A DNA stretch of 64,000 nucleotides, taken from a bacterium. GTDB taxonomy: Bacteria > Myxococcota_A > Bradymonadia > UBA7976 > UBA1532. The DNA lies in contig JAUHXC010000001.1 in assembly GCA_030427205.1 (NCBI GenBank), forward strand, positions 744,001 through 808,000, written 5' to 3'. The position numbers and the translations under genes were made by a program. Numbering within the stretch: the first letter of the stretch is position 1; every line of letters begins with the position of its first letter. Under the pieces are notes generated by a model. That model had not been told where the DNA came from, did not search any database, and saw only the letters and a list, made by a program, of their open reading frames with translations. Positions 24,285 to 42,260 of the stretch are shown piece after piece.

Positions 24285-24294
24285 TCGCCACCCG

Positions 24295-24768: not shown

Positions 24769-24794
24769 ACCCGGCGGTCGGCGCTGGCCGACGC

Positions 24795-27700
24795 TCACTC
24801 GACCAGCCGCTGCACCTCGGCCGCCTTCTCCGCCTGCCCCAGCCGGCCCCACAGGTCGACCGCCAGCGCCGCCGCCCGCCCGGCGCGCCCGCGATCGTCG
24901 GCCGCCAGCGCCCGGCGCACCCCCGCCTCGCACATGCGCGCCGCGTCGGTATCGCTCAGGTCGCTCTGGGCCAGCAGCATCTCAAGCGCGTCGAGCTGCT
25001 CGTCGAAGGCCATCCAGTCGCCGTGGGCCGCCGCGATGGGCAGCAGGCCCGCCCGCGCCGCCGCCTCGGCCACCTTGATGCCGCTGCGGGCGAAGGCGCG
25101 CAGGGCCGACTCCAGCGGCTGCCACGCCTCGTCGATGCGATCGGCCGCCACCAGGGTGAAGCCCAGGTTCAGGCGGGCGTAGGGCGCGTTGGCCGCGCCC
25201 AGGCTCTCCCACAGCTTCAGCGCCGCGCGATAATGCTCGGCCGCCGCCTCCAGGTCGCCCTGCTGCCGGGCCAGCTCGCCGTCGAGCAGCCGACAGCTGG
25301 CCATCGCCCCGCGGGCGCCGCCCGACTCGAAGGCCTCGCGGGCCGCCTGCACATAGCGCTGCGCCTCGTCGGCCGCGCCCGCCTGCAAGCGCGCGCGGGC
25401 CAGGTTGAACAGGCTGCGCCCCAGCCCCAGCGGGTCGCCCACCGCCCGATACGCCTCGCGGGCGGCCTCCAGCGCCGCCACCCCGCGCTCGCGCTTGCCC
25501 TGGCGCAGCAGGCTGACCCCCAGCTCCTCGGCGCAGGCCGCGCGCAGGGCCACGTCGTCGCCCACCGCCTGCCCCGCCGCCCGCAGCAGCCGCTCCGAGT
25601 CGGCCACCCGGCCGCTGGTGCGGGCGATGATGCCCAGCTCGAGCATCGCGCCCGCCCGCTCCGACGACCAGCCGAAGCGCTCGGCGGCGGCCAGGGCCTT
25701 CTCGGCGATCACCTCGGCGTCGTCTGCGCGCCCCCGCAGCCGGGTCAGCCGGCTCTCGAGCAGCCAGCCCTGCCCCCAGCGCGGGTCGGGATCGGCCACC
25801 ACCGCGACCGTCGCCCGCCAGCCGGCCAGCTGCTCGGCGGCGCTGGCGTAGTCCCCCTCGTCCAGCCGGACCCGCGTCGCGTCGAGAAAAGACGTCGCCG
25901 CCTCGTCCAGCCGGCCGGCGGCGCGCAGGTGCCGGGCCACCCGCTCCGCCGTGCGCCGGCCCGGCTCGCGGGCCAGGGTGCGCGCGCAGATCTGGTGCCA
26001 CAGCCGCAGCCGCCCCGCGTCGCGGGCCCGCTGCAAGACCGCCTCGCGCAGCATGCCGTGGGCGAAGCTCCAGCGCACCGCGGGCCCCTCGCGGCCGCAG
26101 CGGGCCAGGGCCGCGTCGAGCAGCGCCTCGACCAGCGTCGGATCGGGCGCCAGCCCCGCCGCCGCGCAGACCGCCTGCCACTCGCGCCCGCCGATCTGAA
26201 GCCCGAGGGTCGCCGCCAGCTCCAGCGCCCGGGCGTCGGCCTCGCCCGGCCGACCGTCCAGGATCTGCTCGACCCGCGCCCGCCAGACCGCCGCGATGTC
26301 GTCGGGCAGCGCGGTCAGGGCCCCCGACGCCAGCCGGAAGCCGCCGGTGCCCGGCTCGAGCAGCCCGCGCTGCACCCAGTCGCCGACGAGCTGCACCGCG
26401 AAGAGCGCGTTGCCGCCGGTGCGCGCGTCCACCCGTCGGATCAGCTCCCCGTCGAGCCCCAGCAGCGCGCCGAGCATCGCCGGTCGATCGTGGGCGTCGA
26501 GCGGGCCCACCTCGACGCGCATCGCGTCCCGCGCCACCAGCCCGTCGAGCCGCTCCACCGCGTCGGGGCGCGCGGCCAGGTCTTCGTCGCGCACCGTCAG
26601 CACCAGCAGGATCGGACACGGCGTATGCCGCTGGGCGTCGAGCACGTGGGCGCAGAAGTCCAGCGCCCGGCGGCTGTAGTGGGCGTCGTCGAGCAGCACC
26701 ACCAGCGGCCGCTCGGCGGCCAGCCGCTCCAGGTGGCGGCGCACGATGGCGAACTGCTCCTCGGGGCGCACCGCGCGCAGTCCCGCCGTGCGCCCGCCGC
26801 CGTCGACGCGCTGCTGGGCCTCGCGCCCCGGATCGACGATGCCCACCAGCGCGTCGACCTCTTCGGTATCGCGCACCTCCAGCGTCGCCAGCACCCGCCC
26901 GATGTGCATCGGCAGCTCGGCCGGCGGCACCTCGACGCAGCGCAGCGCCCGCTCGAGCATGCCCGACAGCCCGTGCCCCGGGCCGTCGACCGCGCCGTGC
27001 ATCGCCCGCAGCCCGCTCGCCGCGCCCAGCTCGTCGGCCCGCTCGAGCAGCCACTCCGCCAGCCGGGTCTTGCCGAAGCCCGACGGCCCGTGCAGCACCG
27101 CCGCGTGGGCCATGCCGCTGTCGGCGACCACCCCCAAAAGCGACCACAGCAGATCGCGCTCGGTCTCGCGGCCGACAAACGGCACCCGGCGCAGGCCGAA
27201 GAGCCCCAGCCCGACCCCCTGCATCTGCTGCCCGAGCGGCGCCGGCCCGTCGGCGCCCCGCCAGTCGTCCGACATCGGCGGGATGCGGCGGGGCGCGGTC
27301 ACCGGCAGCGGACCGGTCTCGAGCAGCGCCGCGTCGGCGAAGGCCGGCGGGGCGCTGTCGAAGACCGTGCGCTCGCCCTCCGCCGCCGGATCGAAGGCCG
27401 GCATCAGGCCGGCGAAGTCGTCGCTGATGCCCGAGATGCCGCTGAGCGAGCCCAGCGAGCCCAGGTCGATGCCGTCCACCGTATGGCCCGCCACGCCCGC
27501 CGCGCCGCCCGCCGCGCCGGTCGGCCCGAAGACCGGCGGCAGCGTATCGACGCTCGCCTGCACGTCCGCCAGCCGGGCCAGCGCCCAGGCCGCGTCGGCC
27601 GCCTTGCGGAAGCGCGCCTCGGGGGTCTTGGCCAAGAGCCGCCCGACCCAGCCCTCGAAGCCATCGGGCAGGGCGATGCGCGCGATCAGCGGCGGCACCG

Positions 27701-28439
27701 GCTCGGTGAGGTGGGCCATCATCGTCGCCAGCGGCTTGTCGCGCACCTCGAACGGCGTGCGCCCCACCGCCAGGGCGAAGGCCAGGCAGCCCAGGGCGTA
27801 CAGATCGGTCCACGGGCCGTGGGCCCAGACCTGCCCCTTGACCTGCTCGGGCGCCATGTAGTTCGGCGTGCCCACCATGCCGCTCTCGGCCGCGCCGCTC
27901 GTCTCCCAGGTGCGCGAGGTCTCCCGGCGGGCGCCGTCCCGCGGGGTGCCGCCATCCATCGCGTGGGCCACCCCGAAGTCGGTCAGCTTCAGCGTGCGCC
28001 CGTCGTTCGACCACAGCACGTTGTCCGGCTTGAGGTCGCGGTGCACCAGCCCGCGGGCGTGGGCGTGGGCCAGCGCGTCGAGCAGATCGAGCAGGATCTG
28101 ACGCAGGGTCGGCCAGTCGGTCGCCGCGCGCTCGACGTCCAGCGAGCGGCCCAGGCGCTCCATCACCAGAAACGGGCTGCCCTGGCGCATGCTGTCGGTG
28201 GGCGGCGCCTCGACCACGCCGAAGTCGAGGATGCGGGCGATGCCGACGTGCTCCATGCCCGCCATCGCCCGCGCCTCGTTGCGAAACGCCGCCTGGAAGC
28301 GATCTTGAAGCGCCCGGGTATCGGTGATGACCTTGATCGCCACCGGCCGCCGATCGACGCGATGGCGCGCGCCCCACACCTCGCCCATACCGCCGCGGCC
28401 GATGGGATCGGTCAATTCGAACGGGCCGAGGGCCTTCAT
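24795..28439 (-). CDS. Ser/Thr protein kinase fused to AAA ATPase and TPR array
   Basis: The 1214-aa protein has three parts. The kinase domain (about 6-290) has GRGGMGEV (14-21), Lys36 in VAIKVI, HRDLKPDN (133-140), DFG (154-156) and APE (195-197), so it looks active. A Pro/Gly/Ser-rich linker (300-415) follows. The AAA_16/STAND-like ATPase has Walker A HGPSGFGKT (450-458) and Walker B LVVLLDDAH. About 400 residues of TPR-like helices complete the protein (for example GDDVALRAACAEELGVSLLR, then LGLGRSLFNLARARLQAG). This architecture is common in myxobacterial signalling. Substrates may include the FHA proteins of this window, which is inference. It is the largest gene here and is convergent with rlmH. 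Confidence 0.92.
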   Translation of the reverse strand: MKALGPFELTDPIGRGGMGEVWGARHRVDRRPVAIKVITDTRALQDRFQAAFRNEARAMAGMEHVGIARILDFGVVEAPPTDSMRQGSPFLVMERLGRSLDVERAATDWPTLRQILLDLLDALAHAHARGLVHRDLKPDNVLWSNDGRTLKLTDFGVAHAMDGGTPRDGARRETSRTWETSGAAESGMVGTPNYMAPEQVKGQVWAHGPWTDLYALGCLAFALAVGRTPFEVRDKPLATMMAHLTEPVPPLIARIALPDGFEGWVGRLLAKTPEARFRKAADAAWALARLADVQASVDTLPPVFGPTGAAGGAAGVAGHTVDGIDLGSLGSLSGISGISDDFAGLMPAFDPAAEGERTVFDSAPPAFADAALLETGPLPVTAPRRIPPMSDDWRGADGPAPLGQQMQGVGLGLFGLRRVPFVGRETERDLLWSLLGVVADSGMAHAAVLHGPSGFGKTRLAEWLLERADELGAASGLRAMHGAVDGPGHGLSGMLERALRCVEVPPAELPMHIGRVLATLEVRDTEEVDALVGIVDPGREAQQRVDGGGRTAGLRAVRPEEQFAIVRRHLERLAAERPLVVLLDDAHYSRRALDFCAHVLDAQRHTPCPILLVLTVRDEDLAARPDAVERLDGLVARDAMRVEVGPLDAHDRPAMLGALLGLDGELIRRVDARTGGNALFAVQLVGDWVQRGLLEPGTGGFRLASGALTALPDDIAAVWRARVEQILDGRPGEADARALELAATLGLQIGGREWQAVCAAAGLAPDPTLVEALLDAALARCGREGPAVRWSFAHGMLREAVLQRARDAGRLRLWHQICARTLAREPGRRTAERVARHLRAAGRLDEAATSFLDATRVRLDEGDYASAAEQLAGWRATVAVVADPDPRWGQGWLLESRLTRLRGRADDAEVIAEKALAAAERFGWSSERAGAMLELGIIARTSGRVADSERLLRAAGQAVGDDVALRAACAEELGVSLLRQGKRERGVAALEAAREAYRAVGDPLGLGRSLFNLARARLQAGAADEAQRYVQAAREAFESGGARGAMASCRLLDGELARQQGDLEAAAEHYRAALKLWESLGAANAPYARLNLGFTLVAADRIDEAWQPLESALRAFARSGIKVAEAAARAGLLPIAAAHGDWMAFDEQLDALEMLLAQSDLSDTDAARMCEAGVRRALAADDRGRAGRAAALAVDLWGRLGQAEKAAEVQRLVE

Positions 28440-28567
28440 CGGGGCAGCATGCCCGTCGGGGCCAATCGAAGAAAGAGGGGGGTGACCGGATGGTCGGCTC
28501 GCCCGCCGGCGGGGCGGGCGCGGGGCGGGGCGGGGGCGCTCAGCGGCTGGGTCTCAGCGGCGGCGGC

Positions 28568-29029
28568 TCACTTGCCGCGCATGATGGTGTCGGGGATGGT
28601 CTCGTGGGGCTTGAGGATGTTCTCGGGCAGCAGATAGCCCATCTTCTTCCAGTCCTTCGCCAGCTTGCCCCAGTCGCTCGACACCGCCGAGACCGACGGC
28701 TTGATGTAGCTGCCGTGGCTCTTCTCGAGGCTCGCGAGGGACGGCGGCGACTTGTTCTCCGCCGCCGCATGGCCCGCGTTGGCCAGGGCCAGCCCATCGT
28801 CGACCTTGCCCTGGGTGCGGGCCGCCTGCGCGGCGCGCAGGGCGATCACGCCCGTGCGGAAGGTCGCCTGCAGCTTGGTGTCCTTGTCGGCCTTCTTGGC
28901 CATGCCCTCGAGCAGCTTCACCGCCGCCTCGATCTTGGTCTTGACGGTGGCGTCGCTCGTCTTGGCCGAGGCGGCGAGTGGGGCGAGCACGAACAGGGCG
29001 AGCGCGGCGAGCGCGAAACGACGGATCAT
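28568..29029 (-). CDS. Secreted helical protein of unknown function
   Basis: The 153-aa protein has a perfect GGAGG 6 nt before ATG 29029 and a classic signal peptide (ALAALALFVLAPLAASA). The mature part is helical and rich in Lys and Ala, and ends PENILKPHETIPDTIMRGK. There are no cysteines or enzyme motifs. A minus-strand TACCAT around 29080 could be its -10. It lies between hflX and the kinase gene on the same strand. Family not recognised. Confidence 0.75.
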   Translation of the reverse strand: MIRRFALAALALFVLAPLAASAKTSDATVKTKIEAAVKLLEGMAKKADKDTKLQATFRTGVIALRAAQAARTQGKVDDGLALANAGHAAAENKSPPSLASLEKSHGSYIKPSVSAVSSDWGKLAKDWKKMGYLLPENILKPHETIPDTIMRGK

Positions 29030-29172
29030 ACAGAACCTCCCAGCAGGGTGCGGATGCATCGGTAAACGAATTCGGCCGATGGTAGCGGCGCCTACGTCGC
29101 TGCGCGAGTTTTGTTCGAACTGAATTCGGACTCGGCGGATTTTTCTGCCTCTTTTGCGGCCCCAGCCCGCGC

Positions 29173-30810
29173 TCACCAGCCGTCGTCGTCCTCCTCGGCC
29201 TTCTGCTGCTCGGCCCACAAGCGCGACTCCATCGCGTCGAGCAGCGGCCGGATCGACGGCCGATCGAGGGCCGAGACGCCGAACGCGTCGTGCAGCCGAC
29301 AGATGTTCTGCGCCACCGCCGGATCGAGCACGTCGACCTTGTTGAAGACGAGCAGCCGCGGCTTGTCGAGCAGCGCCATCTCGTCGAGGATGCGCCGCAC
29401 CGACTCGATCTGGTCCTGCATGCGCGGATCGCCGATGTCGACGACGTGCAGCAAGAGGTCTGCGTCGTCGGCCTCCTCGAGCGTCGCCTTGAAGGCGCTG
29501 ACCAGGTCGTCGGGCAGGTCGCGGATGAAGCCCACCGTATCGGTGATCACCAGCTCGCGATCGTAGGGGAACCGCAGCCGCCGCGTCGTCACGTCCAGCG
29601 TCGCGAAGAGCTTGTCCTCGACGAGCACGTCGCTCTGGGTGATCTGGTTGAACAGCGTGCTCTTGCCCGCATTGGTATAGCCGACGATGGCCACCACCGG
29701 CACCCGCCGCGCGTTGCGCCGGCTGCGCCGGGTCTGCCGCTGCACCACCGTCTGCTGAAGCTGCCGCTCGATGCGGTTGATGCGATCGCGCGCCCGCCGC
29801 CGATCGACCTCCAGCTTCGTCTCGCCCGGCCCGCGCCCGCCGATGCCGCCCATCAGCCGCGAGAACGCCGTGGTCTTGTGGGCCAGCCGAGGCAGCATGT
29901 ACTTCAGCTGCGCCAGCTCGACCGCCAGCTTGCCCTCGCGGCTCGTCGTCCGCCGGGCGAAGATGTCGAGGATGAGCTGCGCCCGGTCGATCACCTTCAC
30001 GTCGGTCGCGTCGGCCAGGGCCCGCACCTGATTCGGGTTGAGGCTCTGGTCGAAGATCACCAGCTCGCAGTCGAGCTGCATCGTGCGCAGCAACAGCTCG
30101 TCGAGCTTGCCTTTGCCCATCACGTACTTCGGATCGGCCCGCCGCCGGGTCTGGGTGATCGCGTCGACGATGACCACGCCCGCCGTATTGGCCAGCTCGC
30201 TCAGCTCGCGCAGGGCGACCCGGGGGTCGATGCGATCACCGGGCAGGTCGACGTGCACCGCGATCGCCCGGGTCTGCCCCTCGGTCTCGACCACGCCCAC
30301 CGTGCGCCGGCTGAACTCCTCCTCGAGCGCCTCGATGAAGGCGCCGAAGTCGAGATCCTGCGCGTGCACCGTCGTCGCCGTCGGCTCGGCGTAGGGCAGC
30401 TCGGAGCCGTCGGGCAGCACGTGGGTGTGATACAGCGTCGCCGGCTGACCGCCGCGCCCCACGCCCACCGCCGCGATCAGATCGAGCCGCAGCCGCACCA
30501 GGTCGGTGAGGTCGTCGCTGGTCAACGGCTCGTCGCGCAGGTGGGTGTGCACCAGCCGCACCCCGCGGAACCGCCCCGCGCCGGCCCGCGCGCGGCCCAG
30601 ATCGGGGATGAACAGCTTGTCGGCGTCGCCCACGATGACGTGCCGCACCCGCCCGCCGCGGTCGAGGGTGATGCCCACCTGCCGCCCCGTCTCGTGGCTC
30701 AGCTCGCACAGGGTCTGGGCCAGCGGCACCGAGACGATCGAATCGCGGGGCACCTTTCGCTTGTAGAGCCGCTCGAGCCGCTGCCGATGGGCCGGGCCGA
30801 GGCCTTGCAT
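29173..30810 (-). CDS. hflX: GTPase HflX, long N-terminal form
   Basis: This protein has 545 residues from the ATG, or 551 from a likely upstream CTG at 30828. The N-terminal part includes HTHLRDEPLTSDDLTDLVRL, an extension found in larger HflX proteins. The HflX subdomain follows (YVMGKGKLDELLL, LSLNPNQ-like SLNPNQVRAL, GGIGGRGPGETKLEVDRRR), then the G domain: G1 GYTNAGKSTLFN, G3 DTVGFIRDLP, G4 NKVD and G5 SAL. It splits stalled or heat-damaged ribosomes. The family N-terminus (KxxGNxxGL...LERLYxR) is encoded only if translation begins at the CTG, which has GGGAG at proper spacing. The promoter is shared with the divergent glycosyltransferase gene. Confidence 0.94.
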   Translation of the reverse strand: MQGLGPAHRQRLERLYKRKVPRDSIVSVPLAQTLCELSHETGRQVGITLDRGGRVRHVIVGDADKLFIPDLGRARAGAGRFRGVRLVHTHLRDEPLTSDDLTDLVRLRLDLIAAVGVGRGGQPATLYHTHVLPDGSELPYAEPTATTVHAQDLDFGAFIEALEEEFSRRTVGVVETEGQTRAIAVHVDLPGDRIDPRVALRELSELANTAGVVIVDAITQTRRRADPKYVMGKGKLDELLLRTMQLDCELVIFDQSLNPNQVRALADATDVKVIDRAQLILDIFARRTTSREGKLAVELAQLKYMLPRLAHKTTAFSRLMGGIGGRGPGETKLEVDRRRARDRINRIERQLQQTVVQRQTRRSRRNARRVPVVAIVGYTNAGKSTLFNQITQSDVLVEDKLFATLDVTTRRLRFPYDRELVITDTVGFIRDLPDDLVSAFKATLEEADDADLLLHVVDIGDPRMQDQIESVRRILDEMALLDKPRLLVFNKVDVLDPAVAQNICRLHDAFGVSALDRPSIRPLLDAMESRLWAEQQKAEEDDDGW

Positions 30811-30877
30811 GTTGCCGTGAACCTTCAGGGCGCGCTCCCGCCCCGGCGTGCGGGGCCTGTCGTCGTTTGCGTTCGGC

Positions 30878-30891
30878 CGCAGTATACTGCG
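30878..30891. promoter_or_regulatory. Palindromic bidirectional -10 region between hflX and the glycosyltransferase gene
   Basis: CGCAGTATACTGCG (30878-30891) is a perfect 14-bp palindrome. It carries TATACT on the plus strand (30883-30888) and on the minus strand (30886 down to 30881), so each direction gets a good -10 hexamer. On the minus side CCGACA lies 17 bp upstream as a possible -35. It may also be an operator, since a dimeric protein bound here would block both genes. Confidence 0.5.
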
Positions 30892-30921
30892 CCGCCTCGC
30901 AGTTGTCGGAGACCACGCAAC

Positions 30922-32496
<1,575 letters not shown>

Positions 32497-32524
32497 GCCC
32501 GGCGGCGCCTGCCCGCGTATTGCA

Positions 32525-32551
32525 CGGACCATCCAGAGACCATAAGGTCCG
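32525..32551 (+). promoter_or_regulatory. Inverted repeat upstream of the Septu-like locus
   Basis: cggacc (32525-32530) and ggtccg (32546-32551) form a 6-bp inverted repeat with a 15-nt loop, 27 nt before the start of the GTPase-ATPase gene. It could be an operator or an mRNA hairpin in the leader. The evidence is only symmetry and position. Confidence 0.25.
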
Positions 32552-32577
32552 GCACTGGCTTCTCCGAGAGGGCGCCG

Positions 32578-35500
32578 ATGGATGCCGACGCACGCCGAGC
32601 CAATCTGCAGGCCCGCCATGACGAGCTGAACCGGAAGCTGACCGAGTTCGCGGCCGACGTCGAGCTCGCGGACGGGCTCGCCGACCTCGCGCGGGCCTGG
32701 ATCGACCAAGTCGACATCGCCCGGCAGGACGCCGAGCACGGACTTCGCGTCGTATTCCTCGGGGAGGTGGGCACCGGGAAGAGCACGTTGGTGGCCGCGA
32801 CCACCGGCCTGCGACTCGAGAGCGTCGAGCGCAGCAACCCCCGATCCTGGTCTGCCCTCCCGGTAGGCGGTGGCCGCACCACTTTGGGCGAGACGCGGAT
32901 CGTCTTCGAGACGCGGGATACGATCCGCCTCGACGTCGAGCCAGTCTCCGCGAAAGACCTCGAAGTCGAGCTGCGCTTGCTGGCTCAGGATCACATCGCC
33001 AAGTCCCTCGATGAGGGTGGCGCGGGTGGACAGCATGGCGAGGAACTCTACGACCTGCTGCGCGCGTGGATCGTGCCCGACGCGCCGGAGGAAGACGGGC
33101 CGAGCGGCGTCATCGAGCAGTGGGCTGATGAACTGCAGGACGCCGAGCTGCTCTTCGAGCGCTTCGTCGCCCGGGTCGAGCCGGCGCGACGAGAGCGCCC
33201 TTGGAGCCGGGACTTCGATCACGACGACGCGGGGCGCAAGGCGTTGCGGCGCACCTTGCGCGGCCTGCGCTTCGGGCGCCTCGGCGACGACGCCCCGGCC
33301 CCGGAGACGACGACCATCCGGCTGCCGAGCGGCGCACTCGGACCCCACGTCGTCGAGGTCGTCGATACTCAGGGCCTGGATACCAAGCCGACGCCCGATC
33401 TGATCGAAGGCCGGACCGATCTGCAGGAGTGGTTGAGCGATCCGCACGCGCTGCTCGTCATCTGCTCCCGGTTCGAGAGCGCGCCCGACCGGGCGACGCT
33501 CGAGCTGCTGACCGCGTTCGCGGCCCAGGACCGCGGGGCCTGCGCGGCGACGCCGGTGATCATCGACCGCCGTGAGCTGCCCGATGACGACCCCAGCGAG
33601 AAGCGCGCCCACCGGCGGGAGCGCAAACGGCGAGAGCGGGAGTGCGACGACGTCCTGCGACGCACCGAGCAGATCCCACAGATCTACGAGGCCCCCTTCG
33701 CCGTCGACGCGCGCAGCGAAGGGAAGCGCCTTCGCACCCACCTGCGCACCGTGGCGGCCCGGATCCGCGCCGAGCGGATCGACCGTTGGTCGGAGGCGCT
33801 CGCCAGCGCCGCCAGCGTGCTCGAGACCCTCGACGCCCGCCGCGCCGAGTTCTCGGCTGCGTCCCGCGAGATGGACCTGCGGCTGTGGTGGGCGTGGGAC
33901 GCCGTGGTCGCCGCGGGCTCCGACGACGAGGAGCGCCGCCCGGGGGATGGCCTGCGCGAGATCGGGTGGGCGATCCCTCGGCAGGCCGGCATCAACCACC
34001 ACTCCCACGTCGCGGCCGCGATCCGGCGGCGGGGCCGCTATCGCTACCTCGACTTCGCCGAGCTGGGGGCGCGCTTCGCCGCCTATGAAGACAGCGTCGT
34101 GTACGTCGAGGCGCTCAAGGCCGTTCGTGCCCTCGCCGACGATCTGTATGGCGCGTGCGAAGACGCGCAGTTGCAGGCGCACCTGAAGCTGCGCGCGCAG
34201 CAGTTCGGGCGCGCGGTGCGCACGTTCCGCGATCGCGTACGCGCCGCCTGGATCCCGGTGCTCAAAGCCTATCTGGCCTCCGATGAGGCGGACGTCCTTT
34301 GGCGCCGCTGTCACCCGCGCTGGGGCCTCGGCCCGGGGTACCTGCAGGACGTCGGCCGCTGGTTCACCGAAGAGAGCGCGCGCGCGGCGCTCGCGATCGC
34401 CCGGACCATCCTGCGGGAAGGGCCCACGCCCGAGCTGCCCGCGCGTCCCCCGTTGCTGCGCATCCGACAGATCCGAGCGAAGCACTATCGCGGGATCGCC
34501 GACCATGCGCTCAATCTGCGTGGCGTCACTGCGCTCGTCGGCGACAACGGCCACAACAAGACGAGTTGGCTCGAGGCCCTCGCCGCTTCACTCGGCGCGC
34601 TCTTGCCCGAGGTCGGCGCCGCCTCGGCAGCACCGCTGCGCGTCGGCGACGTCCACCACCTCATCCGCGACCTCAACGGGGTGCCTGACCTGCGCCGACA
34701 GCTGCCCCTCGAACTCGAAGTCCGGGCTGAACTCGTCGGGCGGTCGCTGACTTGGAGTCGCCGCTGCGAAGCGCTGCCCGCTGCGCTCGCCGTGGACGCG
34801 GTCGCCGAGCGCGAGGACGGCCCGGACAGCGAGAGCCCGGACCCCGCACGCCTGGACGAGTTGCCGCTCGACGAGGCCCCCAGCAACGATGGCCGGGTCC
34901 GGATCCGTCGGCTGGCCGACCGTCTGGCCGACGCGGATGCCGTCCAGCTGCCCGTCTTGGCCTACTATGGGACCCAGCGCCTGTGGCCGGTGGAGCTGGT
35001 GGCGAAGCGGGCGCGCGCCGCGGTCGGCAGCCGGCTCGACGGCTACCGCGCGTGCCTCGACCCGGCCTCGACACACCGCTTCGTGCTCGACTGGATGCGA
35101 CGCTTCACCATCGAAGAGTGGCGCCGCAAGAAGCCCGTCATGCAACTGCAGGCGATCCGCCAGGCGGTCGTCGACTGCGTCGAAGAGGCGCGCTCGTTCC
35201 ACTATGACAGCGCCTACGAAGAGTTGCATCTCACCCTGCGCGACGGCCGGGTGACGCCGTTCCGCATGCTCTCCGACGGCTACCGCAACATCGTGGCCAT
35301 GGTCGCCGACATCGCGTGGCGCGCGTCCGTGCTCAACCCGCACCTCGGCCGCCGCGCGCCGGCCATGGCCGAGGGTATCGTGCTCATCGACGAGATCGAC
35401 CTGCACCTGCACCCCAACTGGCAGCGGCGGGTCCTCGACGACCTGCGCCGGGCCTTCCCGCGGCTGCAGTTCGTCACGACGACCCACTCGCCCTTCATCA

Positions 35501-35823
35501 TCCAGTCGCTTGAGCCTGGTGAGCTGGTGAACCTCGACCCCGACGCATCCGCCGACGCGCTCTACGCCGACGAGAGCCCCGAAGACATCGCCGAGAAGGT
35601 GATGGGCGTCGAGTTGCCGCAGCGCAGCCGGCGACGCCAGCGGGAGGCAAAGGCCGCCGAGGACTACTACGCGCTGCTCGAACGCCTGCCGGACGCCGAC
35701 GAGTCGGAGCTGCACGACCTGCGGAACAAGCTCGACGAGCTGCTGGCGCCGTACAACGACAATCAGGCGTTCGTCGCGCTGCTTCAGCGCAAGCGGCTCG
35801 TCGCCGAGGCGCAGCGCGGATGA
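32578..35823 (+). CDS. Dynamin-like GTPase fused to PtuA/AAA15-type ATPase (Septu-like defence protein)
   Basis: This 1081-aa protein joins two P-loop modules. The N-terminal half has a dynamin-like GTPase: G1 GEVGTGKST (62-70), a GRTT segment (99-102) that may act as G2, and G3 VVDTQGLDT (261-269). No clear NKxD G4 is seen. Helical sequence follows to about 620. The C-terminal half is a PtuA/AAA15-like ATPase. Its Walker A is GDNGHNKTS (655-663; Asn replaces the Gly before Lys). It also has AYYGTQRLW (795-803), the ABC-type signature LSDGYRNIVAMVADIA (898-913), Walker B IVLIDEIDLHLHP (934-946) and the His switch TTTHSP (967-972). In Septu systems PtuA forms a complex with the HNH nuclease PtuB, and exactly such a gene follows with an ATGA overlap. 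A GAGAGG site supports the start. An anti-phage role is inferred. Confidence 0.88.
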   Translation: MDADARRANLQARHDELNRKLTEFAADVELADGLADLARAWIDQVDIARQDAEHGLRVVFLGEVGTGKSTLVAATTGLRLESVERSNPRSWSALPVGGGRTTLGETRIVFETRDTIRLDVEPVSAKDLEVELRLLAQDHIAKSLDEGGAGGQHGEELYDLLRAWIVPDAPEEDGPSGVIEQWADELQDAELLFERFVARVEPARRERPWSRDFDHDDAGRKALRRTLRGLRFGRLGDDAPAPETTTIRLPSGALGPHVVEVVDTQGLDTKPTPDLIEGRTDLQEWLSDPHALLVICSRFESAPDRATLELLTAFAAQDRGACAATPVIIDRRELPDDDPSEKRAHRRERKRRERECDDVLRRTEQIPQIYEAPFAVDARSEGKRLRTHLRTVAARIRAERIDRWSEALASAASVLETLDARRAEFSAASREMDLRLWWAWDAVVAAGSDDEERRPGDGLREIGWAIPRQAGINHHSHVAAAIRRRGRYRYLDFAELGARFAAYEDSVVYVEALKAVRALADDLYGACEDAQLQAHLKLRAQQFGRAVRTFRDRVRAAWIPVLKAYLASDEADVLWRRCHPRWGLGPGYLQDVGRWFTEESARAALAIARTILREGPTPELPARPPLLRIRQIRAKHYRGIADHALNLRGVTALVGDNGHNKTSWLEALAASLGALLPEVGAASAAPLRVGDVHHLIRDLNGVPDLRRQLPLELEVRAELVGRSLTWSRRCEALPAALAVDAVAEREDGPDSESPDPARLDELPLDEAPSNDGRVRIRRLADRLADADAVQLPVLAYYGTQRLWPVELVAKRARAAVGSRLDGYRACLDPASTHRFVLDWMRRFTIEEWRRKKPVMQLQAIRQAVVDCVEEARSFHYDSAYEELHLTLRDGRVTPFRMLSDGYRNIVAMVADIAWRASVLNPHLGRRAPAMAEGIVLIDEIDLHLHPNWQRRVLDDLRRAFPRLQFVTTTHSPFIIQSLEPGELVNLDPDASADALYADESPEDIAEKVMGVELPQRSRRRQREAKAAEDYYALLERLPDADESELHDLRNKLDELLAPYNDNQAFVALLQRKRLVAEAQRG

Positions 35824-36596
35824 GGCCCATCGATCGCGGAGACTGCCCGACCGGCGACGACGGGCGACCGCTGACGTTCTCGGACTATGCTTTGGCGAAG
35901 CCCCACTTGCTGGATCGGCTCGGCAGCTTCTGCTCGTTCTGCGAAGTCGAGATCTCGGGGCCGATCGACGTCGAGCACATCCGACACAAAGACCAGAACC
36001 CCGACCTCGAATGTGCGTGGAGCAACCTGCTGCTGGCGTGCAAGAACTGCAACAGCACCAAGGGCACCAAGGTGAACACGGCCGCCGACGTATCCGACCG
36101 GCTGTGGCCGCATCTGCACCGCACGTTCGACGTCTTCGAGTATGGCCCGGCCGGGCGGGTGGCGCTGGCCGACATGACCGACCCCGAGCTGCGAGCCCGA
36201 GCTGCGGCGACCGCCGAGATGGTGGGCCTCATGCGGCGACCGCAGCATGGCCTCACCACGCGTCAGCTCGAGCGCGCGACAGACCGCCGCTATCAGAAGC
36301 GCAGCGAGGCATGGCGGGAAGCGTGCGATGCCCGAGCGGACCTGCGCACGCTCGACTCACCCGAGATGCGCGCGTGCATTGTACGCCATGCGCGAGCCCG
36401 GGGCTTCTGGTCGGTGTGGATCACGGTCTTTGCCGACGACGTCGAGATGCGGCGCGCGCTGCACGTCGCGTTCACGGGCACGGCGGTCGACCGCGTCGAG
36501 GCGATGGCCGCGGACGACTCAGCGTGCTCAGCGGATCAGCCGACCTCGTCGGCGCCGGCCTCGACGGCCTGCAGCGGCAGGTCGCCCTCGGCCTGA
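35820..36596 (+). CDS. PtuB-like HNH endonuclease of the Septu-like system
   Basis: The 258-aa frame starts inside the stop of the fused ATPase (ATGA). It begins MRPIDRGDCP and has a zinc-stabilised HNH core: CSFCE (Cys38, Cys41), DVEHIRHKD (His53), WSNLLLAC (Asn69) and CKNCNSTKGTK (Cys74, Cys77). This order matches the retron/Septu HNH family in which PtuB cleaves DNA under control of PtuA. Residues 85-230 are helical. The last 28 residues are low in family character and are read from sequence antisense to the next gene, which ends at 36536. The original stop was probably lost at the locus boundary. The nuclease core is intact. Confidence 0.87.
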   Translation: MRPIDRGDCPTGDDGRPLTFSDYALAKPHLLDRLGSFCSFCEVEISGPIDVEHIRHKDQNPDLECAWSNLLLACKNCNSTKGTKVNTAADVSDRLWPHLHRTFDVFEYGPAGRVALADMTDPELRARAAATAEMVGLMRRPQHGLTTRQLERATDRRYQKRSEAWREACDARADLRTLDSPEMRACIVRHARARGFWSVWITVFADDVEMRRALHVAFTGTAVDRVEAMAADDSACSADQPTSSAPASTACSGRSPSA

Positions 36597-37447
36597 TCCT
36601 GCGCCGCGTCGTCGGCAGCGGCCTCCGCCTGCGCCTCCGCCTGCAGCTCGGCCTCGGCCGCCGCGACGGCGTCCACCGCGGCGCGGGCCTCGGGGTCGAG
36701 CTCCAGGGTATCGAGCGGCACGTCCTCCACCGCCGGCTTGCCCTGACGCCGGGCGGCGTGGGCCGCCGCCAGCCGCTTCATCTGATCGCGCACCGGCGCC
36801 ATCAGCGCGGCCCGCTCGGCCTCGTCCTCGACCATGGCCATGATCCAGGCGATGACCCGCAAGAGCGCCACCTGCATCGCGGCGTAGGCCTCGCCCACCT
36901 CGAGCGCGGTGATGGTCTCGACCACCGAGAGCGAGTCGCGATAGCCGGGCAGGAGCTGCTCGATGCGGCGCAGCGGCCGCTCGAAGCCCAACTGCGCCGG
37001 CGCGTCGGGGAACTGCTCGCGGATGAGCACCACCAGGTACTCGTTGAGCGCCACCTGCTCCTCGTAGGGGATGCGGGTCACGGCGGCGAGGCCCTTGGGG
37101 AAGACCTGCTCGAGCAGCTTGGCGGCCAGCTCGCCGTCCGGGGTGTCGCCGTAGCCGGCCGCCTCCCGGGTCAGCAGGTCGTGGATCTGCCCCCAGTTGC
37201 CGTCGACGCGGGCGTCGATGGGCCCGGTCTGGCCCTCGCCGCGGGCCAGCTTCTGCGTCTGCCGGCGGGCCTTGCGGCCGATGAAGAGCATCGCGGCGGC
37301 CTTGGCGGCGGCGACGAGCCGCAAGAGATCGGCGTAGCCCAGCGGGCGGGCGCGGGCCTCGACGCCGGCGCAGGCCTGCACGGTGTGGCCCGGGGGGAAG
37401 CGGCGCACGTCGAAGACGGCGTCGTACTCGGTGAGGATGGCGGTCAT
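36536..37447 (-). CDS. Hypothetical protein with acidic Ala/Glu-rich tail
   Basis: The 303-aa protein has AGGAG 6 nt before ATG 37447. Residues 1-215 are mostly helical, with a mildly hydrophobic segment AYAAMQVALLRVIAWIMAMV near 190-209 that may be amphipathic or a single membrane helix. The C-terminal 60 residues are an Ala/Glu/Asp-rich disordered tail. No known motif is present. It is convergent with the HNH gene and overlaps it by 61 bp. Family not recognised; whether it belongs to the defence locus is unclear. Confidence 0.7.
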   Translation of the reverse strand: MTAILTEYDAVFDVRRFPPGHTVQACAGVEARARPLGYADLLRLVAAAKAAAMLFIGRKARRQTQKLARGEGQTGPIDARVDGNWGQIHDLLTREAAGYGDTPDGELAAKLLEQVFPKGLAAVTRIPYEEQVALNEYLVVLIREQFPDAPAQLGFERPLRRIEQLLPGYRDSLSVVETITALEVGEAYAAMQVALLRVIAWIMAMVEDEAERAALMAPVRDQMKRLAAAHAARRQGKPAVEDVPLDTLELDPEARAAVDAVAAAEAELQAEAQAEAAADDAAQDQAEGDLPLQAVEAGADEVG

Positions 37448-37590
37448 CAGATACTCCTGTCGCGTCGTGGCCCGGGGTCTCCGGGCCGAGGGTTGTTCGT
37501 CGTTGGCGCGAGAATCGGTGCCGGTTGACGTGTTTCGACGGTAGCGGCCGGCCGCCGCGGCTGTCGACCGAGCGTCCTATCAATTCTTGC

Positions 37591-37617
37591 GTCTGTTCTC
37601 CAATGTGCTGAACAGAC
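37591..37617. promoter_or_regulatory. Perfect inverted repeat in an A/T-richer patch
   Basis: gtctgttc (37591-37598) and gaacagac (37610-37617) form a perfect 8-bp inverted repeat around an 11-nt spacer. It lies in a stretch (about 37575-37675) visibly poorer in GC than its surroundings, including ccatttttaccacttttgaa. It may be an operator or promoter region for the gene at 36536-37447 or a boundary of acquired DNA. Confidence 0.35.
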
Positions 37618-37694
37618 ACGGGTTCTCAGAGGCCATTTTTACCACTTTTGAAACACGACTTAGGATTTGGGCGGTCGGGGCCGGGCCTGAATCG

Positions 37695-38200
37695 GGCAGG
37701 TGTGCCCCCGCGAGGCTGGACGGCGAGCCGGTTCGGGGCAGGGGTGCCGTGATCGGGCTGGACGGCGAGCCGCTCTCGGGCAGGGGTGCCGTGCGCGGGC
37801 TGGATGACGAGGGGGTGCATGAGGGCATGTCCTCATGCGGGGGCTGGATGGCGAGCATTCTTGGGGCAGGGGTGCCGTGAACGGGCTGGATGACGAGGGG
37901 GTGGATGAGGACATGTCCTCATGCGGGGGCTGGATGGCGAGCATTTTTGGGGCAGGGGTGGCGTGAACCGGCTGGATGGCGAGGGGGTCGATGAGGACAT
38001 GTCCTCATATGGGGTCTGGATGGCGAGCATTTTTGGGGCAGGGGTGCCGTGAACGGGCTGGACGACGAGGGTGGAGGTGAGGACATGTCCTCATGTGGGG
38101 TCTGGATGGCGAGCATTTTTGGGGCAGGGGTGCCGCGGCGCGGCTGGACGGCGAGCATTCCTCGGGCAGGTGTACCGCGAACGGGGCTGGGCGAGCGACC
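37695..38200. repeat. Tandem array of 86-bp dimeric repeats with palindromic cores
   Basis: The motif GGCTGGA (or its GGTCTGGA variant) recurs at 37714, 37756, 37798, 37842, 37884, 37928, 37970, 38014, 38056, 38100, 38142 and 38185, that is at alternating steps of 42 and 44 bp (86-bp dimer). Half A carries ggcgagcat and the small inverted repeat ggcaggggtgcc. Half B carries ATGAGGACATGTCCTCAT, a perfect 18-bp palindrome at 37905-37922 and 37991-38008, with near copies at 37819-37836 and 38078-38093. No unique spacers lie between units. As 86 is not a multiple of 3, it is unlikely to encode a repeat protein. Confidence 0.88.
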
Positions 38201-38281
38201 CGGTCGCGCTGACGGCCAGCCGGCCAGCGGCACGTGGCCGGCGCTGCGGGCGCCCGTCGACGAAAATCCGGTCGCCCTGCA

Positions 38282-38734
38282 CTACTCGTTGAGCTCCCGG
38301 CGAGCGGCGAGGGTCTGCTGCAGGTCGCCGGCCCGCTCCGCGAGGCGGCTGCGCAGGCGGTCGAGCTGGTCGTCGGTCTGCGCCTCGACCTCGCGCTCGA
38401 GCTGCTCGACGAGGGCCTGCAGCTCGCCGAGGGCCATCGACACCGCCTCGGAGGGCGGGGCGCGGGTCTCGTCGCGGGCGCGGGCGAGCTGCACCAGGGT
38501 GGCGACGACGCCGTCGACCTCGCGCAGCACCGGGTCGAACTTCGCGTCGGGCGCGTCGATGAGCAGCGTGGCGATGGCCGTGCGCAGGTCGAGGGCCCGC
38601 TGCACGTCGGGGTGGCGGCCGGCGACGCTCTTCCAGACGAGCGGCAGGCGCAGGCGCTTGGGGCCGAGGACCCGCTGCACGCCCCAGACGGCGGCGGCGA
38701 TGAGCGCGGCGACGATGAGCAGGCGGATGAGCAT
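38282..38734 (-). CDS. Membrane-anchored coiled-coil protein
   Basis: The 150-aa protein has an N-terminal helix (MLIRLLIVAALIAAAVWGVQ) followed by a mostly helical soluble part with heptad-like sequence (LGELQALVEQLEREVEAQTD, LDRLRSRLAERAGDLQQTL). There is no enzyme motif. Its stop lies 90 bp from the end of the 86-bp repeat array. No good ribosome site is visible. Family not recognised. Confidence 0.65.
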   Translation of the reverse strand: MLIRLLIVAALIAAAVWGVQRVLGPKRLRLPLVWKSVAGRHPDVQRALDLRTAIATLLIDAPDAKFDPVLREVDGVVATLVQLARARDETRAPPSEAVSMALGELQALVEQLEREVEAQTDDQLDRLRSRLAERAGDLQQTLAARRELNE

Positions 38735-38780
38735 CGGCCGATTACAGCAGGGGTCCGCGGGGCGGGCAAGGCGCGCGCTG

Positions 38781-38860
38781 GGCGGCGGTGGCCTCGCGCC
38801 TCTCGGCGGCGGTGGCCTCGCGCCTCGGCGGCGGTGGCCTCGCGCCTCTCGGCGGCGGTG
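38781..38860. repeat. Minisatellite of 22-24 bp units
   Basis: ggcggcggtggcctcgcgcc units start at 38781, 38805, 38827 and (partial) 38851, with unit lengths 24, 22 and 24. The array fills most of the gap between the coiled-coil gene and the putative immunity gene. It has no coding pattern. Confidence 0.8.
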
Positions 38861-38946
38861 CCGGCGCCGTGCCAGTCGTCGGAGGCGCGCGGGCGATCAG
38901 CGTCGTGGGTCGGTGAACATCACTCGCGGCCAGTGCGCGCACCGGG

Positions 38947-39660
38947 TCATGGGCGTCTGGCGAGCCGGTTCGCTGCCTGGCTCGCCCCGTCGCGGGCCCA
39001 TTCGTCGAGCGCGATCCGGTGCCGGTCGGCGCTGAAGGGCTCCATGGTGTTCAACACCAGGGGCCCGACGCGTGGCACCACCAATACGAGGTCGTCGGCC
39101 TCGACCCTCGCCTCAGCCTCGGGGGTGGCAGCGGGCGCCATCTCGAAGAAGAAGATACCCGTGAGGCGGTTGGCCAGATTCAGGATCGGCGCGCCGAGGA
39201 GGGGTTGCTGCAGGGTCGGTGGGCGGTCGGCTGCGGCGCCGAATACGTTCACCCGCAAGTCCGCGTCGGCCAGCAGCTGCGCGCCCCAGATCGGCCGCTC
39301 CACCAGCTCGTTCCCCATGAGCAGGTGCTGGACCGCCCGCGCCTTCAGGTCGCTGCGCACGAGGATGTAGTCCCCCGCCGGCAGTCGGTCGATCAGCCCG
39401 AGACCACGCCGCGCGGCGCTGCCCTTCAGCCAGGCTACGCCGGCCTCGTCGGGCCAGCCTCCCGCGACGAAGCGCGGGTTCTCTTCGTGGTAGACCCCCC
39501 AGGCGTCGTCCGGGTCGGGGTGCTCCAGGCAGAAGACCGGGCGCCCGGGCTCACCGATGTAGAGCAGATCGCCGTCCCGACGCACGGTGATCGACCCCTC
39601 GTCACCGGTGACGCGGAGCTCGGCGAGGGTCTCGGAGTATGCCGTGAAGAGTGCGGGCAT
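38947..39660 (-). CDS. Putative immunity protein of the adjacent toxin
   Basis: The 237-aa protein has AGGA correctly spaced before ATG 39660 and lies 9 nt after the toxin gene stop. It has no signal peptide. The sequence alternates strands and helices (SITVRRDGDLLYIGEPGRPV, WLKGSAARRGLGLIDRLP, LVLVVPRVGPLVLNTMEPFS), compatible with a SUF/SMI-like or other immunity fold, but the family is not recognised. The assignment rests on position directly behind a polymorphic-toxin-like gene. Confidence 0.6.
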   Translation of the reverse strand: MPALFTAYSETLAELRVTGDEGSITVRRDGDLLYIGEPGRPVFCLEHPDPDDAWGVYHEENPRFVAGGWPDEAGVAWLKGSAARRGLGLIDRLPAGDYILVRSDLKARAVQHLLMGNELVERPIWGAQLLADADLRVNVFGAAADRPPTLQQPLLGAPILNLANRLTGIFFFEMAPAATPEAEARVEADDLVLVVPRVGPLVLNTMEPFSADRHRIALDEWARDGASQAANRLARRP

Positions 39661-39669
39661 GGGTCCTCG

Positions 39670-41439
39670 TCAGTTCTTGACGACGGGCAGGAAGTCGATG
39701 GGCGAGAACGTAACCAGATGCAGCGTATCGTCGTCCAGCCGCTCGAACACCGCGAAGGTATCCCGCCACTCCACCAGATCGGGCTCGGCACCTTGCACCG
39801 AGTTGTAGCCTCGCCGGTAGTTATCGGAGTTGCCCTGGAGTTTGAGCTTCTGACCGGGCTTCAGGGCGTCGAGCGCGTCGGCGTTGTCGTTCAAGATCTT
39901 GCTCAGATCCCGTTTGGCGTGCGCCCGATCCATGTAGACCGTCGTGTTCAGCTTGTGCGAGCGGCTCATCGCCAGCGCCTTGACTTCGTCGACGGACGCG
40001 CCCTCCGGTGGAACATGGTCCCCGGAGTGTCCTACGGGCCGGTCCCCGTTCTTCTTGACGGTGACCCCCGGGCGGCCCTCCGACGACAGCATGAGATCAT
40101 CGGCCTCGCGCTGGGTAAAGCGCGGGGATTTGGGCGGATGGGTCTCGTGCGTCTGATCGCTGTCGCTCTCCGGTGCGCGCTCGTGCTCCGGCGAGCGCTC
40201 GCTGTCCGGTGAGCGGTCGCGCGGCAGCTCCGGCTTGTCGGGCGTCTTCGGCTTCTTGCCGCCCTTCAGCGCCTTGAGCAGCTCATCGGGCACGTTCTTG
40301 AGCGTCTTGATCGGCTTGAGCACCGACTGCACTCGAGGCAAGGCCGCGATCGCTTTGGCGGCCTTGGCCGCCTTGCCGACCCACTTCGCCCCGGTGACAG
40401 CCCCGAACGAGAGGAACGCGAGCGCGACCTCCATGAGCACGTAGCCGACGACCCAGCCTCGGAAGTGCCACTTCTCGAAGATGTCTTCGTGGTTCCACTT
40501 CGCGACGAACCCGTCGATCCAGCCCTCGACGAGCGCCTGCCAGTCCAGGGTGGAGAGGGCGGCCCACAGCGCCTTGATGTCGGCGATGATGCTGCCGGTG
40601 AAGATGCTCTCGAGCACGTCCCAAGCGAGAGCGACGAGGTCGGCGATGCCGAGGAGGATGTCTGCCAGGCAGGCCGCGGCCCCGTGCAGCACGCCGGCGA
40701 CGGCGCCGCCGATCCCCAGCGCGAACTCGGCGACGTCGGACGCGACCTCCTTGGCCCGGGCCCACGCCCCGTTCGTGATCGAGCCATCGTCGACGATGCC
40801 TTCGAGGGTCTGGGCAAACGTCGGGCTGGGCAACCAGATCAGATAGCCGGCACGGGTGCGGGTGTCTTCCCAGTCGTCGCCGCCAGCGCGGTAGATGCCG
40901 CGATCGCCTTCTCCCCGGTTGACGTACTCGAGCACGTTCACGTAGAAGCGCAGGTCCTGGCCGGGCCGCACCAACTGGCCGTACTCGCCTTCGGCGATGC
41001 CGATCGCGCTCTCACCGCTCCCGATACGGTGCAGCCTCGCGCCGGGCTCGGGCAGATCGGTCTTGACCCGGTTGGCCGCGATATAACCCTGGCGGCCGTC
41101 GACATGGGTCACCTCGTACCAGCCGCCCGGCACCTCCTGACCGACGAAGACCCGCGTACCGAAGGGCATGTGACTCTCGACGGTGGACCCGTCTCCGGGG
41201 CGCGGTGCGTCTCGCAGGTTCGCGCCGTCCTCCGGGGCGACGATCCCCGGCTTGTTGATCACGCGGCCCTCGACGTCGTCGAGATCCGGGGTCGCCCCTT
41301 CGTCCTGTAGCTGGCGCTGGATGTCGCGCGCCTGTCCGCGCTTCGATCGGCGACTGCGCAGCGCGCTCTCGTTGCCGGTCGACGGTGACGTCTCCCCCTG
41401 AGCGTCTTTCTCGACGTCCTGCTCGTAGGTGAAGCCCAT
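39670..41439 (-). CDS. Polymorphic toxin-like protein with SH3 and LysM-like N-terminal modules
   Basis: The 589-aa protein begins MGFTYEQDV and is disordered to about residue 60. An SH3b-type domain (about 70-122) includes GANLRDAP and GWYEVTHVDGRQGYIAANRV. A LysM-like segment follows (RIGSGESAIGIAEGEYG). Residues about 205-370 hold long hydrophobic helices like a pre-toxin or pore-forming region (FALGIGGAVAGVLHGAAACL). After a Pro/Glu/Ser-rich linker comes a C-terminal domain (about 440-589) with GHSGDHVPPEG and MDRAHAKRDLSKILND, whose His/Asp pattern could be a nuclease site. This order is typical of secreted polymorphic toxins in Myxococcota. The frame is open upstream without ATG/GTG/TTG as far as a CTG at 41535; a TTG adjoins the ATG. 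Start uncertain. Confidence 0.7.
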   Translation of the reverse strand: MGFTYEQDVEKDAQGETSPSTGNESALRSRRSKRGQARDIQRQLQDEGATPDLDDVEGRVINKPGIVAPEDGANLRDAPRPGDGSTVESHMPFGTRVFVGQEVPGGWYEVTHVDGRQGYIAANRVKTDLPEPGARLHRIGSGESAIGIAEGEYGQLVRPGQDLRFYVNVLEYVNRGEGDRGIYRAGGDDWEDTRTRAGYLIWLPSPTFAQTLEGIVDDGSITNGAWARAKEVASDVAEFALGIGGAVAGVLHGAAACLADILLGIADLVALAWDVLESIFTGSIIADIKALWAALSTLDWQALVEGWIDGFVAKWNHEDIFEKWHFRGWVVGYVLMEVALAFLSFGAVTGAKWVGKAAKAAKAIAALPRVQSVLKPIKTLKNVPDELLKALKGGKKPKTPDKPELPRDRSPDSERSPEHERAPESDSDQTHETHPPKSPRFTQREADDLMLSSEGRPGVTVKKNGDRPVGHSGDHVPPEGASVDEVKALAMSRSHKLNTTVYMDRAHAKRDLSKILNDNADALDALKPGQKLKLQGNSDNYRRGYNSVQGAEPDLVEWRDTFAVFERLDDDTLHLVTFSPIDFLPVVKN

Positions 41440-41642
41440 CAACCGACGCGCTGCCTCACCCGGTGCGATGGGTCGGACTTGGAGCGGATCGGGATCGGGC
41501 TGCCGGTCGGTGTCGGGGGGCGGATGATCACGCAGTGACTAAGCGAGCATGGCGGCGATGTGTCCGCTCATGAGGTTTTGAGGCCTCAACGGGGGCGACC
41601 GCAGTCACCGGCGTCCCCGCCAGCGCAATACGCGCAACACGG

Positions 41643-41671
41643 TTGGCCCGGGCCGATCGGGCGCGTAGAGT
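41643..41671 (+). promoter_or_regulatory. Sigma70-like promoter of the Cys-rich gene
   Basis: TTGGCC (41643-41648) and TAGAGT (41666-41671) are separated by exactly 17 bp. The ATG of the Cys-rich gene follows the -10 by 8 nt, without a ribosome site, so the mRNA is probably leaderless. Confidence 0.5.
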
Positions 41672-41679
41672 GCCCGGCC

Positions 41680-42108: not shown

Positions 42109-42137
42109 CCGTCGGCGGTAGAAAATACCGCAGACGG
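42109..42137 (+). terminator. Hairpin directly after the Cys-rich gene
   Basis: ccgtc (42109-42113) pairs with gacgg (42133-42137) and gcggta (42115-42120) with taccgc (42126-42131), leaving one mismatch and a gaaaa loop. It starts at the base after the stop codon. An A-run, not a U-run, follows, so it may stabilise the 3' end or act with Rho rather than as an intrinsic terminator. Confidence 0.4.
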
Positions 42138-42222
42138 AAAAAACGCGCCGCGCCGGCTGCGAACTGCCCGGTGATGCCTGCTCTCGCCCCCATCACCGAC
42201 TTCCCCGCGCGGCCCGGCGCAG

Positions 42223-42260
42223 TAGAATGGCGCCTCGCCCGTGATGAGGAGGCGCCGCTG
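42223..42260 (+). promoter_or_regulatory. -10 element and ribosome site deciding the CHAT gene start
   Basis: TAGAAT at 42223-42228 is a near-consensus -10, placing the transcription start near 42235. That is downstream of the first in-frame ATG (42174). GAGGAGG at 42246-42252 then lies 5 nt before a CTG at 42258. Together these favour translation from CTG. The same string GTAGAATGGCGCC or a close form recurs before the pentapeptide-repeat gene (59528). Confidence 0.45.

Follow-up and report, generated by a model that had tools for sequence, protein, structure and literature searches.

A Septu variant in which PtuA is fused to a predicted dynamin-fold NTPase

A 64,000-nucleotide stretch of a bradymonadial genome (the window, part of contig C77 of an 11.4-Mb genome) carries a two-gene locus at 32578-36596, whose first gene encodes a PtuA-type ATPase and a predicted dynamin-fold NTPase as a single polypeptide and whose second, directly after it, encodes the HNH nuclease PtuB. 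Both parts by which Septu is recognised, a PtuA-family domain and an adjacent HNH PtuB gene, are present, and the locus is a genuine new Septu variant. Somewhat more probably than otherwise, it protects against phages by an abortive mechanism, with the dynamin-like half as an inbuilt switch that would keep PtuAB inactive until infection. To our knowledge, how Septu senses infection is unsettled. With a candidate sensor covalently joined to PtuA, the trigger, the nucleotide switch and the nuclease could each be mutated singly in a two-gene construct.

The fusion gene and its PtuB partner

The fusion open reading frame (ORF) occupies 32578-35823 on the plus strand (1081 aa, ATG start), and no same-strand gene lies between it and the PtuB gene or overlaps the pair. 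The original prediction had described both reading frames, their ATGA overlap and a series of motifs, all of which are present as it gave them: GEVGTGKST, VVDTQGLDT, AYYGTQRLW, LSDGYRN, IDEIDLHLHP and TTTHSP in the fusion protein, and C38xxC41, EHI (with H53), NLLLAC and CNSTKG in PtuB. The features of the locus are as follows, with conservation counted over the 42 fusion sequences described below.

32578..34443, plus strand: predicted dynamin-fold NTPase module, residues 1-622 (helices 2-53, G domain about 54-381, helical bundle 382-603)
32761..32784, plus strand: G1 / P-loop GEVGTGKS, residues 62-69; G65, G67 and K68 invariant in 42/42
32878..32892, plus strand: G2-like TTLGE, residues 101-105; T102 invariant in 42/42
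33364..33375, plus strand: G3 DTQG, residues 263-266; D263 and G266 invariant in 42/42
34024..34041, plus strand: RRRGRY loop, residues 483-488; R484, G486 and Y488 invariant in 42/42
34456..35823, plus strand: PtuA ATPase domain, residues 627-1081, by PADLOC, Foldseek and PDB sequence match
34540..34563, plus strand: PtuA Walker A, degenerate GDNGHNKT, residues 655-662; GKT kept in 40/42
35269..35289, plus strand: ABC signature LSDGYRN, residues 898-904; L898, S899, D900, G901, R903 and N904 invariant in 42/42
35380..35415, plus strand: Walker B / D-loop VLIDEIDLHLHP, residues 935-946; V935, D938, E939 and D941-P946 invariant in 42/42
35820..35823, plus strand: ATGA stop/start overlap of 4 bases, coupling the fusion gene and the PtuB gene
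35820..36596, plus strand: PtuB HNH nuclease gene, 258 aa, ATG start; PADLOC PtuB PDLC00315 E 1.8e-65, Pfam HNH over cut-off, catalytic and zinc residues conserved

That a PtuA-type ATPase and a dynamin-like NTPase share one chain coupled to PtuB, as originally proposed, is supported by profile, protein and fold searches. The PADLOC PtuA model PDLC00278 matches residues 627-1077 at E 1.7e-110, a search of PDB sequences finds the solved PtuA chain 8ee4 at E 1e-34, and the full-length structural model (pLDDT 85.7, pTM 0.81) matches in Foldseek the PtuA of the E. coli PtuAB complex (8eea, E 6e-19). The P-loop lysine K661 and the Walker B aspartate D938 are invariant in 42 of 42 sequences, and we take them by motif as the counterparts of K43 and D316 in Septu EcB88, whose defence is reported to need these PtuA Walker A and Walker B residues as well as HNH residues of PtuB, and which cuts tRNA-Tyr (PMC13096335). 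Of 98 PtuB sequences, the window's among them, all share H53, N69, N78, C38, C74 and C77, and 97 have C41.

The N-terminal half is predicted to have a dynamin fold, consisting of a G domain and flanking helices. Its fold matches in the structure search include the membrane-active dynamin-like proteins (DLPs) BDLP, SynDLP and mitofusin, and the named matches in a viral structure library at E <= 0.001 are likewise dynamins. In sequence comparisons, Pfam gives no Dynamin_N match and no family over its cut-off for this half; a profile of the module finds only P-loop matches at E 0.0045 or worse among PDB sequences (mitofusin-1, E 0.23), and the PADLOC models of LeoA and LeoBC match partially (E 1e-3 and 6e-3, over 68 and 63 residues). 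A second ABC ATPase in this half was considered and rejected, as the Pfam ABC_tran match (E 0.02) spans the P-loop alone and the predicted fold is that of a dynamin. R484 and G486 of the RRRGRY loop are still conserved when L095, a relative linked to a helix-turn-helix (HTH) domain, is added to the alignment. The conserved nucleotide-binding residues argue that an NTPase cycle of the dynamin-like half matters. The fold itself comes from the structural model, and the single chain, the gene overlap, the P-loop, G2 and G3 residues, the PtuA and PtuB families and the clade described below are read from the sequence.

Distribution of the fusion and of its N-terminal module

At least 41 further proteins match 88-100% of the length of the 1081-aa query, with 37-58% identity to the window protein (the search scored the 7993 candidates sharing most words, and the set of 42 includes the window protein). 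These proteins, together with three genome loci, rule out an assembly or frameshift artefact, and the 42/42 conservation rules out chance motifs. The five relatives with a named organism belong to Myxococcota/Deltaproteobacteria and include Nannocystaceae bacterium ST9 and Polyangium sp. In a quick LG+G4 tree of 138 PtuA domains, which raised long-branch warnings and omits fusion P0039 for its length, the 41 fusion rows group as a single clade (SH-aLRT 99); the fusion family is real and probably of single origin. PtuB is coupled by ATGA at all three fusion genome loci (window, L093 and L094), the 4-base overlap being identical at L093 (12391-12394) and L094 (8603-8606); the possibility that homologues lack the HNH gene is refuted for the fusions, since all three loci keep it. 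For 15 of the 42 fusion clusters the longest contig is equal in size to that of an HNH cluster.

A further protein-level search, made with the DLP profile over 7998 candidates, gave 11 proteins among the matches listed, all of them fusions already in the set. The window's N-terminal half has matches in 4 of 377 genomes of the phylum and 3 of 57 of the class, and in the class of genome G174 the module is matched in 6 of 71 genomes, two of them weakly. With a wider profile, at least 14 of the 377 phylum genomes match, at least seven strongly and at least seven only weakly (E 2e-5 to 9e-4); these counts are lower bounds because three candidates were scored per genome. Seven strong genomes, to which the list of architectures is confined, comprise three PtuA fusions, two HTH-DLP proteins, one DLP joined to an ABC ATPase, and one helicase-DLP accompanied by two more DLPs.

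At L095 and L101 an XRE-type HTH stands in front of the full-length module, the HTH being recognised by Pfam in L095 and by weak PADLOC and NCBIfam HTH matches in L101. An HTH-DLP from a Citrobacter plasmid, used as query, found 19 plasmid records, mostly alphaproteobacterial, in 18 of which the match spans >80% and starts no later than query residue 38. Sixteen records, representing 15 distinct genes, were read (omitted were H8, whose score is the same as that of H7, and H10 and H12, which share organism and region with H11); H9, H16 and H18 come without annotation, and their neighbours were judged by eye from our own ORF calls. A co-directional nuclease-type gene lies directly downstream in five of the 15 distinct loci:

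Sphingobium: DUF262 gene, 19 bp downstream of HTH-DLP
Sphingopyxis: DUF262 gene, 28 bp downstream of HTH-DLP
Mesorhizobium: DUF3800 gene, 58 bp downstream of HTH-DLP
Pseudanabaena plasmid (L113, 4830-7541): HsdR-N gene abutting the DLP (0 bp), with a PemK toxin gene near
Agrobacterium pAt1D1108b (L114, 3654-10527): unfused PtuA and PtuB, 238 bp downstream of HTH-DLP (PADLOC E 3.7e-165 and 7.1e-111)

The DUF3800 product presumably has a nuclease role. The Pseudanabaena DLP has no Pfam domain and hence no HTH, and its HsdR-N neighbour, annotated so in the record, has a Pfam match just under cut-off. DUF262 is described as common to type IV restriction enzymes such as GmrSD (PMC11980606). The Agrobacterium plasmid shows the module linked to PtuA-PtuB in trans, an HTH-DLP standing upstream of the unfused pair, and speaks for a functional connection of the kind proposed here. 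On the other side of this HTH-DLP lies a divergent gene for a 658-aa ATP-binding protein, which has no PADLOC match.

Two further arrangements come from genome contigs. At L115 (G068:C135, 2965-9623) the module is fused to an AAA_21-type ABC ATPase not matched by the PtuA profile; an HNH_3 gene is the second one downstream, and a ThsB-TIR gene is close by. The region is likely a defence island, and it also holds a 291-aa protein of no Pfam family and a TIR-like gene recognised by eye, without a Pfam match. At L116 (G146:C223, 106-8427, minus strand) three consecutive genes encode dynamin-fold proteins, and in the first of them the module is fused behind a ResIII/DEAD helicase (1353 aa counted from the chosen start). 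In an alignment of ten sequences across the architectures, without L116, the invariant features are G1, the G2 threonine, DTxG and a late W...G.G.G. A phage-borne origin of the DLP half was rejected: neither this half nor the HTH-DLP plasmid query matched a phage record, and viral contigs gave 247 pattern stretches with none confirmed. A search of E. coli DNA returned an IS3 transposase as its sole match.

The window fusion probably belongs to a larger, modular family of dynamin-fold proteins that take part in bacterial conflict systems. A broader proposal, to which we give slightly less than even weight, is that an unnamed soluble dynamin-fold NTPase family, marked by GxxGxGK, the G2 threonine, DTxG and the late W...GxGxG, serves as a plug-in immune sensor or switch like STAND/NLR NTPases. 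It would be coupled to PtuA-PtuB, a different ABC ATPase with an HNH gene close by, a restriction-type helicase or an XRE-type domain beside swapped nuclease genes, and would use dynamin mechanics for signalling, not for membrane remodelling. If this is true, dynamin-fold proteins gain a role without membrane work, and plasmid genes now mostly annotated 'helix-turn-helix transcriptional regulator' are accounted for. With relatives joined to DNA-binding-type, helicase and other ATPase domains, the module may have gone unrecognised as a plug-in component of bacterial immunity.

A proposed built-in switch and its alternatives

In the retron-Septu system Ec83, multicopy single-stranded DNA (msDNA) is reported to sequester PtuAB in an inactive state from which infection releases it (PMC12948488), and in retron-Eco7 PtuA and PtuB are reported to arrest growth jointly and to deplete tRNA-Tyr (PMC11555353). 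By analogy, the dynamin-like half would be restraint and sensor at once, taking the place that msDNA has in Ec83. Nucleotide-dependent dimerisation or hydrolysis in this half would reshape the PtuA oligomer, and the reshaped oligomer would release PtuB for cleavage of nucleic acid, which is reported to be tRNA or DNA for PtuAB elsewhere; switch, dimerisation and release are here borrowed from relatives of each half. As the trigger we favour a soluble signal, for example a product of the phage or a shift in the nucleotide pool, rather than damage to the membrane, because HTH-linked relatives exist and no clear paddle is seen.

Membrane damage would be the cue if the dynamin-like half bound lipid at a phage-damaged membrane like B. 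subtilis DynA, polymerised, and freed PtuB only at the lesion. The fold matches to the membrane-active BDLP, SynDLP and mitofusin point this way, and DynA is reported to go to the membrane after phage induction and to delay lysis (PMC8844932). However, the helical part measures about 220 residues (382-603) and no paddle-like hydrophobic segment stands out, window-19 hydropathy reaching 1.6 within residues 360-600 in two of the 42 sequences (a measure that does not cover amphipathic binding). Relatives bear an XRE-type HTH domain, and LeoA alone is likewise reported to have bound no lipid in vitro (PMC4159319). Membrane surveillance is quite unlikely in our view, and the membrane sensing suggested in the original prediction is not borne out, the HTH-linked relatives fitting a soluble switch at least equally well.

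Several observations weigh against an infection-controlled switch on PtuAB. The fold matches cover residues 1-442, the remaining bundle being barely tested, and their Foldseek TM values are low. The G4 motif [N/T]KxD, by which guanine is specified, is absent in 42 of 42 sequences, its aligned place reading DxR in 39 of them (by sequence alignment, without superposition). With G4 non-canonical we write 'dynamin-fold' and not dynamin GTPase; of the earlier description as a GTPase, the homology holds at the level of the fold, with G1-G3 kept, and G4 fails it. The NCBIfam models, curated on the retron type, all score under their cut-offs (PtuA 153.5 of 500 bits, PtuB 37.9 of 150, TIGR02646 37.2 of 52.15). 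Among the best 80 of 563 confirmed GTDB PtuA loci, 76 include a PtuB-like ORF and none includes a DLP half; since no such locus was kept, the fusion appears rare, in a contig scan that was keyed on PtuA motifs and did not sample the range of the fusion over named genomes. Ten of the 15 distinct plasmid loci have no nuclease-type gene directly downstream of the DLP, and the Agrobacterium neighbourhood is a single case that could reflect island clustering.

The window's own PtuA adds a further difficulty. In its Walker A the glycine before the lysine is N (GHNKT), and with this last P-loop glycine lost the copy may be altered or weakened; the same-genus protein P0002 reads GDNGLYKT, with Y at the glycine position, and the remaining 40 of 42 read GKT. 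The original prediction does not mention this change, which bears on activity and not on the definition of the family. The ATPase site might thus be crippled in the window genus, the copy decaying or repurposed and the dynamin-like half its sole working NTPase. We consider this very unlikely, as neither ORF is interrupted, the remaining motifs of ATPase and nuclease are intact, and the same-genus pair is laid out alike.

The locus may also have a purpose other than defence against phages, such as exclusion of plasmids or other mobile genetic elements, or a stress-linked nuclease whose dynamin-like half reads the nucleotide state. Neighbours at the three fusion loci (judged by Pfam in the window and by eye at L093 and L094) include no obvious defence genes, which counts against the anti-phage switch and fits this alternative, as does the occurrence of HTH-DLP relatives on plasmids, with none found in phage records. 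A defence-island setting, which the original prediction implies, is not evident at these loci. PtuAB, however, is a tested anti-phage pair elsewhere (PMC13096335, PMC11555353), and several plasmid DLP relatives lie near restriction-modification or toxin-antitoxin genes; we regard a role outside phage defence as unlikely.

Compared with known systems, the anti-phage switch proposed here combines familiar parts in an unfamiliar way. With Septu (8ee4, 8eea, 8sux) the locus shares a PtuA-family ABC ATPase with signature, Walker B and H-loop, and an HNH PtuB directly downstream. PtuA is, however, mostly stand-alone (about 420-490 aa stop to stop in the best 80 of the 563 GTDB loci), whereas that of the window follows a 622-residue dynamin-fold NTPase and has, in the window genus, a degenerate Walker A. 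Type I-A retrons (Ec78, Ec83) likewise place PtuAB as effector under an added control element, but control here would come from the fused protein half. A retron reading was rejected: no reverse transcriptase was matched among nine window genes scanned with Pfam, and no msr-msd RNA at gathering score by Rfam, which holds described families only, in 24000-44000.

Bacterial DLPs (BDLP, SynDLP, the 5oxf/5owv pair, LeoA/LeoBC, DynA) resemble the N-terminal half in predicted fold, with helices and a G domain, and in the weak PADLOC LeoA match (E 1e-3); this half differs in lacking Pfam Dynamin_N, a canonical G4 and a clear paddle, and in being joined to a nuclease-controlling ATPase. 'Dynamins' are listed among phage-defence systems (PMC11811056). 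The ptuXYZ operon, described as a putative defence operon (PMC11980606), also recombines a PtuA-like ATPase with other parts, but a DUF262 protein and a BECR RNase replace the dynamin-fold half and PtuB. PtuA takes other N-terminal modules as well, LRR and LRR-Roc-COR-TIR; in the latter (P0052) a C-terminal PtuA again stands behind a sensor-like NTPase module, but one with a Roc-COR GTPase, LRR and TIR and no dynamin fold. The open-access literature (titles and abstract starts, among the matches listed, with subscription journals and preprints mostly outside) holds no description of a dynamin-PtuA fusion or of an HTH-dynamin defence family. Architectures noted alongside (P0045, P0047, P0052, P0043, P0048) are LRR-PtuA, LRR-Roc-COR-TIR-PtuA, PtuA followed by sigma-70 region 2, and an HNH-like part with PtuA on one chain, that part being recognised by eye and by the TIGR02646 name in the source.

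Genomic setting and other genes of the window

Beside the fusion lie a gene for HflX and a membrane-protein gene that is glycosyltransferase-like (GT) by eye, without a Pfam match. The HflX and GT genes are adjacent in three relatives (G057, G037 and G107), whose stretches hold no DLP-PtuA by tblastn; in G057, of the same genus, the fusion is on another contig. GC content at third codon positions (GC3) is 0.86-0.89 in the fusion/PtuB pair, against 0.94-0.97 in the HflX gene, the GT-like gene and the gene at 36536. Because low GC3 is shared by other window genes, at 28568 (0.84), 38947 (0.89) and 39670 (0.88), composition alone is weak evidence of mobility. We count the fusion locus as patchy and mobile, in favour of the anti-phage switch.

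On the minus strand, at 36536-37447, lies a convergent 303-aa gene without a Pfam match that shares its last 61 bases with the end of the PtuB gene; it has 12 matches in the same-genus genome G057 and none in three other family members. Further along, 38947-41442 (minus strand) encodes a protein of 590 aa, whose SH3 match is sub-threshold, and beside it one of 237 aa that Pfam does not match, both of low GC3 for the window, and 42141-44876 encodes a TPR-CHAT protease-like protein (Pfam CHAT E 1.3e-26). PtuA-like genes recur elsewhere in the window genome: contigs C35, C21, C43 and C4 of G000 (loci L002-L005) hold at least four more, and a PtuB-like ORF adjoins every one of them (E 2e-15 to 5e-5 with the PtuB profile).

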